IMG/VR virus record: IMGVR_UViG_3300027859_000020
Coordinates: 1-54,690 of that record
Source of the DNA: a virus
Length of the DNA stretch: 54,690 nt
Direction: 5' to 3' (one strand)
This document shows positions 17,530 to 25,325 of this stretch, in pieces. Position 1 is the first letter of the stretch. Each line of letters starts with the position of its first letter. The position numbers and the translations under genes were made by a program. Under the pieces are notes generated by a model, which saw only the letters and a list, made by a program, of their open reading frames with translations, was not told the origin of the DNA and ran no database searches.

Positions 17530-17678
17530 GTTCCCTCGAACTCTTCATCATATCCCAGTTCAACTGGGTCTATGTCGTTGTATCTATAAGACTCCGTGTC
17601 GGAATAAACTTCTGCCTTGAGTGCTGAGAGCAGCATCTCAAGGTCAGAAATTATAACTTTTAGTTTTCCCTGATCCAT
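17526..17678 (-). CDS. Small acidic protein, 50 residues
   Basis: ATG 17678 to TGA 17526, too short for routine ORF calls. The product starts MDQGKLKVIISDLEMLLSAL, a helical segment, and continues with an acidic tail (DTESY, NDIDPVELGYDEEFEGT). Its ATG overlaps the stop of the ParB-like gene (TAATG) and its stop overlaps the thyX start (ATGA), so it fits exactly between two real genes, strong support that it is translated. Similar small helical proteins occur in other cyanophages. Function unknown. Confidence 0.65.
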   Translation of the reverse strand: MDQGKLKVIISDLEMLLSALKAEVYSDTESYRYNDIDPVELGYDEEFEGT

Positions 17679-18874
17679 TAGAAACCAAATTCTTTTCTAT
17701 GATCTCTGTGACGAGTATGAGTCCAATCTCTTTTCACTTCAATAAGGTCATGTGCTCCCTCTCTTTCATCGGTTTGATCTTGAGGCATTGCTACATGTAT
17801 TGCATCTTTTCTATTGTAAGGTAAAGTGCATATATTTTTACCAGGATTCACAAACCTTATGTATGGTTCTATAGTCTTATCAAAAAAATCAAATATTCTT
17901 TGTCTCCTTTTTTCAACGTCTTCCCTATCGTATCCATAACTAGGTGGATCTACCGTCATGATAATAGACATGGTTTTATTTCCTTCCCATGCTTCCATGA
18001 TTCTATCCTCAATATAATTTCTATTTGCACATAAAGTATATTCAGACACAAAACATAGGACGATAGAACTATTGTCATGTAATACATCGTACAAAGGGTC
18101 TACCTCTACTCCATTTTGTTTCTCTGATATTACTTCTTTCCACCATTTATGTGTATTTTTTTGATTTACCCAAGATTTTGCACCCTTCCCTGTCTTTTGA
18201 GTCTCTTCATGAATTTTTTCATTTATTAAGTTTGTGATAGCGTTTGGTGTGATGGATGAATTTTTAGCGTATCTTGTGATTGTATCAGCAATCCATTCAC
18301 CTGTTACTTCAAAATCCTCAAGTTTTTTATACTCAATGAGTGTACGATTGTAAGTATTCTCAATATCTTCTGGTGAGTTATCTTTGTTTTCCTTGACAAT
18401 AGTATTGTTGACAATAAGAGCAAATTCATTTTCTATAATGTCGCCTATGGTATCATTTGTAGGAAAATTTAAACCTACCGAATGCATCCCATCAATACCA
18501 TCTATCTCTTTTGTTTGACCCCAACATGTAGAATGTCTACCTTCACCATCAGTTCTTTCTTTTGTACGTGCATTGTAGTATATTGGTTCTAGAGTTGGGT
18601 CAACACCATATGCTTCAAAACTCTTTGCTAATTTTTGTCTATCTGCTTTTGATTTAGATCTGAGTTTTCCTCTATTTTGAAGGTAAGTTCCTTGGATATA
18701 GTAATCCCATGGTCTGTACTTCATTTCATGTCCGTCTGCAATGGATACTCCTATACCTTCAGGGTCAAGTTGTGCCCAAATAGGATTGTCTCTATTCAGT
18801 TGATCAAGTCTTGCTTGTACATCAAACGTGTATATTGTTTTATCACGTAATGCCTCATTTATAGGGTCAGTCAT
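17678..18874 (-). CDS. Putative ParB-like protein
   Basis: 398 residues. Residues ~50-120 contain RPWDYYIQGTY, LAKSFEAYGVDPTLEPIYYN and TDGEGRHST, which resembles the ParB N-terminal domain (...S....G...PI......DG.hR). The rest is charged without a motif I know; C-terminal HTRHRDHRKEFGF is basic. Some ParB-like domains cut DNA or use CTP, but that cannot be read here. It has its own promoter with an inverted repeat over the -10, so expression seems separately controlled. Alternative: an uncharacterised phage protein with accidental similarity. Confidence 0.45.
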   Translation of the reverse strand: MTDPINEALRDKTIYTFDVQARLDQLNRDNPIWAQLDPEGIGVSIADGHEMKYRPWDYYIQGTYLQNRGKLRSKSKADRQKLAKSFEAYGVDPTLEPIYYNARTKERTDGEGRHSTCWGQTKEIDGIDGMHSVGLNFPTNDTIGDIIENEFALIVNNTIVKENKDNSPEDIENTYNRTLIEYKKLEDFEVTGEWIADTITRYAKNSSITPNAITNLINEKIHEETQKTGKGAKSWVNQKNTHKWWKEVISEKQNGVEVDPLYDVLHDNSSIVLCFVSEYTLCANRNYIEDRIMEAWEGNKTMSIIMTVDPPSYGYDREDVEKRRQRIFDFFDKTIEPYIRFVNPGKNICTLPYNRKDAIHVAMPQDQTDEREGAHDLIEVKRDWTHTRHRDHRKEFGF

Positions 18875-18880
18875 AATAAG

Positions 18881-18915
18881 AAATTCCTGTTATACAAAAA
18901 GTATAACAGGAATTT
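18881..18915. repeat. 15-base perfect inverted repeat over the ParB-like gene promoter
   Basis: Arms AAATTCCTGTTATAC (18881-18895) and its exact complement (18901-18915) flank a five-base loop. The -10 hexamer of the minus-strand promoter spans 18900-18905. It could be a repressor operator, or a bidirectional terminator: read on the plus strand it ends in TTTTATTT. Confidence 0.85.
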
Positions 18916-18928
18916 TATTTGTTGTCAA
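18900..18928 (-). promoter_or_regulatory. Sigma-70-type promoter of the ParB-like gene
   Basis: The minus strand reads TTGACA (18928-18923), 17 bases, TATACT (18905-18900). The expected start is near 18893, inside the far arm of the inverted repeat, about 20 bases before the ATG. Confidence 0.7.
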
Positions 18929-18935
18929 GTTTTAT

Positions 18936-19079
18936 TTAACTACAAGGTGATGCCTTGCTGCTGACCTTGATTCCACGATACATTAGATCGTGTCTATTAC
19001 GCTTTGCTGCTTCTGCAAGCACTTTAGCGTTGTACTCTTCAGCGTTGTACTCAACGCCTCTGTAAGTGACCTTTGTCAT
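18936..19079 (-). CDS. DUF4278-like small protein
   Basis: 47 residues, ATG 19079 to TAA 18936. The protein begins MTKVTYRGVEYNAEEYNAK; the opening 'TYRGV.Y' is the mark of the cyanobacterial DUF4278 family, and YRGIKV recurs near the end. GGAG lies eight bases before the ATG. The ~120-base leader holds two copies of a structured element that looks like the Downstream-peptide (glutamine) riboswitch, whose typical downstream gene is exactly such a short peptide. Function unknown; regulation by glutamine, a nitrogen signal, is inferred. Confidence 0.75.
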   Translation of the reverse strand: MTKVTYRGVEYNAEEYNAKVLAEAAKRNRHDLMYRGIKVSSKASPCS

Positions 19080-19113
19080 TTGTTTTCTCCAAAGTAGTAG
19101 GTGTTTTTAATAC

Positions 19114-19155
19114 CGTTCCTTCAGTCAACATTTGCGTCCCCGAAGGGATGAACGT
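19114..19155 (-). ncRNA. Glutamine riboswitch-like aptamer, 3' copy
   Basis: On the minus strand: ACGTTC, then a hairpin ATCCC-TTCG-GGGA, then CGCAAA, and closing GAAGGAACG, which pairs with CGTTC to form P1. This matches my memory of the Downstream-peptide/glnA consensus (CGUUCAUCC..GGACGC...GAAGGAACG). It lies 35 bases before the DUF4278 start. Confidence 0.65.
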
Positions 19156-19158
19156 ACC

Positions 19159-19201
19159 CGTTCCGTGTCTGACTTACTTGCGTCCCTAATGGGATGAACG
19201 T
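19159..19201 (-). ncRNA. Glutamine riboswitch-like aptamer, 5' copy
   Basis: Minus strand: ACGTTC, hairpin ATCCC-ATTA-GGGA, CGCAAG, then CACGGAACG closing P1. It shares the CGTTCATCCC and GGGACGCAA blocks with the 3' copy, 46 bases away. The 3' side (GACACGGAACG) departs from GAAGGAACG, so ligand binding may differ. The expected transcription start (~19202) is directly at its 5' end. Confidence 0.55.
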
Positions 19202-19219
19202 TGTGTTAATATTAACACA
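19202..19219. repeat. 18-base perfect palindrome over the riboswitch promoter -10
   Basis: TGTGTTAATATTAACACA is a perfect palindrome that contains the -10 TAATAT (19214-19209 on the minus strand). The position fits a dimeric repressor operator. Confidence 0.7.
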
Positions 19220-19237
19220 GTTATATTATATAGTCAA
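19209..19237 (-). promoter_or_regulatory. Sigma-70-type promoter for the riboswitch-DUF4278 transcript
   Basis: The minus strand reads TTGACT (19237-19232), 17 bases, TAATAT (19214-19209). The -35 overlaps the stop codon of the upstream gene. The predicted start falls at the 5' edge of the tandem aptamers, which supports both calls. Confidence 0.65.
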
Positions 19238-19479
19238 CCTTTATTGTATCGTTTGATACTTTTTTCAAAATCTCCGAAAGATGATTGAAGTTGACCTTCA
19301 TTTTCCTTTGGATCTAGTTTATTATATCCTTTTGCCTTTTTCCAATTACTATAGAGTGCACCAAGATGCCATGATTGAGACAAACTTTTAGGACCGTTCT
19401 CTAACAGGTCAAGTTCCATCTTGTTACTGGTGTATGCTTTGTACTCCTCTCGCCAATTAGAATCGTCATATGGTTTCAC
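19234..19479 (-). CDS. Conserved small phage protein
   Basis: 81 residues, hydrophilic, with several aromatic residues (DSNWREEYKAYT, SQSWHLGALYSNWKKAKGY). No domain recognised. The ATG overlaps the end of the DUF6433-like gene by one base, so it belongs to the unit running from 21487. The stop lies in the -35 of the following riboswitch promoter. I expect homologues only in related cyanophages. Confidence 0.55.
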   Translation of the reverse strand: MKPYDDSNWREEYKAYTSNKMELDLLENGPKSLSQSWHLGALYSNWKKAKGYNKLDPKENEGQLQSSFGDFEKSIKRYNKG

Positions 19480-25189: not shown

Positions 25190-25230
25190 TGTAATAAGAC
25201 GTTTAAATAGGGCTTCAAGGGTAGAAGCGA

Positions 25231-25238
25231 TATTTATT
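25231..25238 (-). promoter_or_regulatory. Late promoter-like element in the psbA leader
   Basis: Minus-strand AATAAATA lies 42 bases before the psbA ATG. A second NATAAATA (GATAAATA, 25328-25321) overlaps the -10 of the host-type promoter. Together they suggest early and late transcription of psbA. Confidence 0.35.
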
Positions 25239-25325
25239 TCCTGCAACCCCTCGCTACAGGATAAAGAGACGAAGTATTATACTGCCTATAAAGGTCTCGG
25301 TTGAGAGCAGTGTGTGTAGTTATTT

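Follow-up and report, generated by a model that had tools for sequence, protein, structure and literature searches.

Marine picocyanobacteria carry glutamine riboswitches of the ON type upstream of DUF4278 genes (PMC6316151), and some glnA RNAs occur in tandem (PMC2864571). The picocyanobacterial Glutamine-II RNA (Downstream-peptide, RF01704) combines a CGUUCA-hairpin-CGCA-...-GGAACG core with a small DUF4278 target; translational ON switching is reported for it in hosts, and in crystal 6QN3 strands are exchanged between two molecules (PMC6698751, PMC7357161). In that dimer the CGUUC of one molecule is paired with the GAACG of its partner, and vice versa. The crystal's authors presumed a monomer in cells, and a two-piece form binds glutamine (PMC6698751); strand exchange and a working two-piece form are both described (PMC6698751, PMC7357161). 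Rfam scans have already listed glutamine riboswitches in cyanophages (PMC9964418, PMC9602691), including a 99-nt glnA match in S-CREM1 although the model is 53 nt long (PMC9964418).

On sequence evidence, the cyanophage element described here is the covalently joined equivalent of the Glutamine-II crystal dimer, which is how the exchanged arrangement has been known so far. It shares core and target with host Glutamine-II, but host copies are single and compact, whereas phage copies are double and exchanged, with P3 linking the halves, and frequently carry genes in their loops. Its outer unit has the three-way junction P1/P2/P3 of Glutamine-I (glnA RNA, RF01739), with AAGUA and GAAGGAACG; unlike Glutamine-I, it has a further aptamer-like unit (P4, P5 and core B) within the P3 loop, and CGCAA replaces CGGAA. 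Like tandem glycine and tandem glnA riboswitches it places two related aptamers in one leader, but strand sharing between its halves rules out separate domains. Tandem glnA RNAs are said to have been credited by Weinberg et al. with a steeper, digital response. Group I and group II introns are structured RNAs with protein genes inserted in peripheral loops, and in this they resemble the phage element; the latter is no intron and differs as a predicted metabolite-sensing leader with the start and usually the stop codon in the aptamer itself. New here are the strand-exchanged fold, the nested genes and a covarying anti-Shine-Dalgarno helix, all three with inferred functions. The element looks like an undescribed way to build a riboswitch.

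Two glutamine-aptamer-like repeats in a cyanophage

The window, the whole 54,690-nucleotide stretch analysed, is a cyanophage fragment. Its relatives are Kyanoviridae and similar T4-like cyanophages, in which the locus lies near thymidylate synthase or talC; they bear out the phage origin proposed in an earlier, sequence-only reading. An Rfam scan of all 54.7 kb at gathering thresholds returned two RNAs only, one of them Glutamine-II. Rfam places PhotoRC-II at 25226-25322 on the minus strand (54.7 bits), the usual psbA-linked leader of cyanophages.

Two glutamine-aptamer-like repeats lie at 19114-19200 on the minus strand, 5' of a 47-aa DUF4278 gene. By sequence inspection their CGTTC starts (19196-19200 and 19150-19154, minus strand) are 46 nt apart; repeats, stems, GGAACG closures, spacing and gene (18936-19079, minus strand) are all present as first described. 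Assignment to the glutamine-aptamer family also stands, in full for one copy. Copy 1 (19154-19203, minus strand) meets the Glutamine-II gathering score (RF01704, 36.8 bits against a cut-off of 33, E 1.9e-5), but copy 2 (19110-19156) falls narrowly short of both glutamine families, with 29 bits against RF01704 (cut-off 33, E 7.9e-7) and 30.7 bits against Glutamine (glnA) RF01739 (cut-off 35, E 1.6e-4 locally). The window element scores 30.7 and 24.7 bits against RF01739, both below the 35-bit gathering score, a cut-off that several relatives pass or nearly pass. The sequence-only reading thus rightly spotted a relative of glutamine riboswitches; its topology is wrong. What it took for degeneracy of the 5' copy, a deviating 3' side, reflects the different parts that the two copies take in a single joint fold. 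Single-aptamer models in the style of Rfam misread such elements, returning two weak matches instead of one strong one.

Pairing between the two copies

The structure of the two repeats as one strand-exchanged double aptamer is well supported by covariation. In the proposed fold, all on the minus strand, C1 (CGUUC, 19196-19200) would pair with G2 (GAACG, 19114-19118) as the 5' and 3' strands of an outer helix P1, an assignment drawn from covariation, pair counts and the minimum free energy (MFE) structure. G1 (GAACG, 19159-19163) would pair with C2 (CGUUC, 19150-19154) as the 5' and 3' strands of hairpin P4, by covariation, pair counts and the tree. P2a (UCCC-AUUA-GGGA, 19183-19194; Rfam alignment and covariation) and P5, or P2b (UCCC-UUCG-GGGA, 19137-19148; comparison of relatives), would be the two aptamer hairpins; they are the sites of nested ORF1 in some relatives and of nested ORF2 in most collected relatives, respectively. 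P3 would connect the two cores, near-invariant core A (CGCAAGUA, 19175-19182) and core B (CGCAAA, 19131-19136; alignment), through a 5' strand AGUCAGACA (19166-19174) and a 3' strand UGUUGACU (19123-19130), both identified by covariation and pair counts and the former also by MFE.

The first sign of exchange came from three relatives without the standard strands, in which copy-1 G[C]AACG occurs together with copy-2 CGTT[G]. Variant C2 was selected in one scan and variant G2 in another, with the partner strand left free in each; all scans together yielded 195 distinct units for covariation. Throughout, the copy-1 5' strand partners the copy-2 3' strand and the copy-1 3' strand the copy-2 5' strand; covariation within a copy never occurs. 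G1:C2 takes the forms GGAACG/CGTTC (133 units), GCAACG/CGTTG (60) and GAAACG/CGTTT (2), and C1:G2 the forms CGTTC/GGAACG (186) and CGTTT/GAAACG (5), with 4 units not cleanly parsed. G1 against C2 therefore varies as GC, CG and AU, and C1 against G2 as CG and UA, with 0 exceptions among cleanly parsed units, whereas within-copy pairing would break in about 60 of the 195. P3 covaries between core A and core B as AGUCG:CGACU, AGUCA:UGACU, AUUCG:CGAAU and GGAAGG:CCUUCC, the last a complete replacement of the P3 sequence in one case; the long type of P3 keeps A-C mismatches.

An alignment of 51 sequences, with nested genes trimmed to their stems, gave the same answer. The exchanged structure is 96.1% paired, with 16 pairs showing two-sided changes and 0 breaks in the two diagnostic exchanged pairs; the within-copy structure at the same positions is broken 9 + 9 times and shows 0 two-sided changes. 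RNAalifold returned exchanged P1 and P4 unprompted, and did not return P3. On a tree built from nested-gene DNA with aptamer columns excluded, G1:C2 changed at least 17 times and C1:G2 at least 2, rough counts given a short and possibly recombining gene. Four of five pairs are invariant in P1, and likewise in P4, so each exchange depends on one variable pair plus P3.

Folding energies agree within limits. The unconstrained MFE structure of the window's aptamer region is the exchanged fold, at -24.1 against -15.1 kcal/mol for two separate aptamers. The element's folding energy is ordinary relative to shuffles (z -0.87), and we discarded energy alone as evidence. With leader and gene start included, the free MFE structure of the window is a third one, so energy does not distinguish the ON and OFF states. 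Scored with a covariance model of the joint fold, the window, itself a training sequence, reaches 86.9 bits, and host single aptamers do not exceed 27. RF01704 describes a single compact aptamer with a within-copy CGUUC/GGAACG pseudoknot; here pairing runs between copies. By covariation and MFE, the outer unit C1/P2a/CGCAAGUA/P3/RAAG/G2 forms the RF01739-type three-way junction P1/P2/P3 with AAGUA and GAAGGAACG.

Exchanged pairing could instead be the ligand-free state of an RNA that switches to within-copy pairing when glutamine is bound. The strands are interchangeable in most sequences, the window included, and an unconstrained ensemble of the window gives the G1:C2 hairpin p 0.99, as expected of an unbound form. 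We nevertheless judge such switching unlikely: in about 60 relatives the innermost pair of the within-copy helix is impossible in both copies, the type-1 consensus is matched better by the outer unit C1-P2a-CGCAAGUA-P3-RAAG-G2 than by either copy alone, and P3 crosses the within-copy helices.

For the exchanged double aptamer, glutamine binding is predicted; nucleotides that contact the ligand in the Glutamine-II crystal (C1, G2, G18 and C39 in the numbering of PMC6698751) are present in both halves. The outer site also fits the type-1 core (AAGUA, RAAG), and one or both sites may bind. Somewhat less probable still than a two-state switch is that the element has decayed into a relic, retained for its structure or its nested genes without binding glutamine any more. 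Such a relic would account for scores below those of host aptamers (36.8 and 29-31 against up to 75 bits) and for a second copy beneath the cut-off, yet low scores are expected if the model topology is wrong, the contact nucleotides occur in both halves (PMC6698751), and 51 divergent aligned sequences show almost no variation in CGCA, the CG/CG closing ends or the AAG that precedes G2.

Two independent aptamers in series, as first proposed together with a steeper, digital response, are very improbable and contradicted by covariation: each copy alone matches Rfam glutamine models, P2 and the closing strands can pair within a copy in most sequences and tandem glnA RNAs are on record (PMC2864571), but covariation, pair counts and MFE agree that neither copy closes its own P1, since about 60 of 195 units have mismatched closing pairs within the copies, without any two-sided change, exchanged pairs are never broken, P3 links the cores of both copies, and the within-copy fold is worse by 9 kcal/mol in the window. 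The sharper response derived from a series arrangement is likewise unsupported. If the exchanged double aptamer is real, it is natural evidence that evolution uses a strand exchange dismissed as a crystal effect.

Genes within the aptamer loops of relatives

Read side by side, most collected relatives replace the copy-2 hairpin with CGTTCATCCC-ATG...ORF...TGGGACGCAAACGACTAA-AGGAACG. Further relatives were gathered by a pattern scan of viral contigs. Loops P2a/P5 are simple/ORF in 124 of the 195 units, ORF/ORF in 30, simple/simple in 26 (window included), ORF/simple in 12 and unclear in 3, proportions that depend on the search patterns used. Because both loops of the window copy are plain hairpins, nested genes are shown in relatives only. 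GenBank records annotate most nested ORFs as ordinary hypothetical genes.

The nested reading frames are fitted closely to the aptamer, with the start codon in or beside an aptamer stem. ORF2 (phrog_504) occupies the P5 loop in 154 units; in 133 of them its start codon lies 10 nt downstream of the beginning of CGTTC, and in 148 its stop is reached after 10 or 13 nt of the core, so that aptamer core sequence encodes its C-terminal residues (DAND, AKAD and similar). ORF1 (phrog_6471), sometimes additional, occupies the P2a loop; of 41 cases, 17 end inside the core (GRK-stop) and the remainder in or before the P2a stem. The P2 stem closing over the gene covaries, with pairs 3-5 Watson-Crick in 86, 84 and 79% against 72, 45 and 52% in shuffles. 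As a possible Shine-Dalgarno sequence for ORF2, the linker carries GGAG in 55 of 98 units with ORF2, compared with 0 of 33 simple units. Third codon positions hold 54% of ORF2 differences (shared ancestry uncorrected), two cysteines are invariant, and a structure model gives a helical hairpin (pLDDT 77). ORF1 and ORF2 proteins have hydrophobic N-termini, and ORF1 sequences too contain paired cysteines; the proteins may be exported and may form a disulfide.

Reading a nested gene and holding the folded aptamer would be mutually exclusive, and nested genes and DUF4278 would be regulated against or after one another. We moderately favour the general proposition that T4-like cyanophages carry an intramolecular exchanged double glutamine aptamer whose loops dock small genes with start, and usually stop, codons in the aptamer, that sensing excludes nested translation, and that the same fold switches DUF4278. 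Literature searches covering few subscription papers found no genes inside riboswitch aptamers. If the proposition holds, we know of no earlier riboswitch whose aptamer contains protein genes.

Host genomes offered no origin for either feature. RF01704 scores above cut-off in 66 of 101 host-family genomes; host 3' halves coincide with complete compact RF01704 aptamers in 51 of 51 cases, and none of these 51 shows gene nesting at the search sensitivity used. Phage-type 3' halves occur at control level in 201 host-family genomes, and we rejected a host origin of the nested genes and exchanged fold; the one real match among the 201 is a phage contig. In 101 host-family genomes, a composite model matched that phage contig and, weakly (27 bits), one host single aptamer.

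Output and flanking sequences

A covarying helix that would block ribosome binding at DUF4278 is consistent with ON switching by glutamine. Its two arms can be formed by CURAAG, preceding G2, and by CUUYRG, a segment that overlaps the Shine-Dalgarno sequence of DUF4278 or lies directly next to it. In the window, covariation identifies the proposed anti-Shine-Dalgarno arm CUGAAG (19119-19124, minus strand) and its partner CUUUGG (19089-19094, minus strand), which overlaps the Shine-Dalgarno GGAG at 19087-19090. A CTTCAG-type partner occurs in 32 of 79 CTGAAG units and 0 of 38 CTAAAG units. Glutamine would stabilise C1:G2 closure; with C1:G2 and P3 closed, CURAAG would be withdrawn from its helix with the segment overlapping the Shine-Dalgarno sequence, and the freed site would turn DUF4278 translation ON at high glutamine, like host Glutamine-I/II switches. 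ORF2 phages carry the nested stop codon within CURAAG, so a terminating ribosome would also be expected to open the helix. Taken whole, the locus is quite probably a cyanophage glutamine riboswitch before DUF4278, a strand-exchanged double aptamer with predicted ON switching and regulation of nested genes.

The target is a 47-aa DUF4278 gene with two YRG motifs (18936-19079, minus strand; Pfam and alignment). It narrowly meets the Pfam gathering score (PF14105, 26.1 against 25.3 bits), the YRG motifs are invariant, and its structure model has a pLDDT of 68. The small target named at the outset is thereby confirmed, and the same pairing of riboswitch and gene is described for hosts (PMC6316151). 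In the glutamine synthetase inactivating factor IF17, DUF4278 forms the N-terminal part, which IF17 can function without (PMC6316151). The C-terminal IF7-like inhibitory part of IF17 is absent, the 47-aa protein being DUF4278 only; we rejected a role as glutamine synthetase inhibitor, which its length does not support.

Two conserved features precede the aptamer. A putative NtcA-type box, GTATCAAACGATAC (GTA-N8-TAC; 19246-19259, minus strand), is conserved in relatives: GTAN8TAC occurs in 86 of 121 distinct upstream regions against 4.3 expected from shuffles, at a tightly fixed distance. Such sites have been described in cyanophages before (PMC3037559). Directly 5' of the aptamer is an 18-bp perfect palindrome, TGTGTTAATATTAACACA (19202-19219), a conserved inverted repeat. 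At its position 93 of 122 relatives have an inverted repeat of at least 6 bp, against about 8 in shuffles, with arms that differ between phages (TGTGTTA/TAACACA, GGTCTA/TAGACC, GGTATG/CATACC). A 5' RNA hairpin and an operator are candidate readings of it. The promoter match claimed earlier, TTGACT-17-TAATAT (9/12), is present, but its -10 (19209-19214) lies inside this conserved repeat, so it does not establish that transcription begins exactly at the aptamer; initiation within the repeat or 5' of it is equally likely. Some relatives carry TATAAATA, a late-promoter form, upstream of the repeat. If these assignments are true, a marine phage reads host nitrogen at two levels, 2-oxoglutarate via the NtcA-type box and glutamine via the leader, and offers a direct test.

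On the 3' side, an intrinsic-terminator-like hairpin of 15 pairs follows the DUF4278 gene (18881-18915, minus strand), so the unit looks monocistronic. A promoter-like TTGACA-17-TATACT (11/12) at 18900-18928 (minus strand) overlaps the terminator, 5' of a 398-aa gene (17678-18874) without Pfam or PHROG match. In four relatives' loci a manA RNA lies directly 3' of the DUF4278 gene, before talC where annotated (L008 1403-1597, L016 1688-1873, L019 1876-2073, L022 1762-1963).

Phage-type sequences also turn up under cellular labels. In the Prochlorococcus single-cell assembly AG-418-C09, contig QCLS01000003.1 (L147, also G001:C3; 189106 bases) carries the phage-type element and is probably a cyanophage genome. 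Contigs labelled Rhodospirillaceae, Nonlabens and Dehalococcoidia (L143, L144 and L145) encode phage-type DUF4278 proteins, and are probably viral contigs binned into those genomes; L143 and L145 contain the phage element as well.
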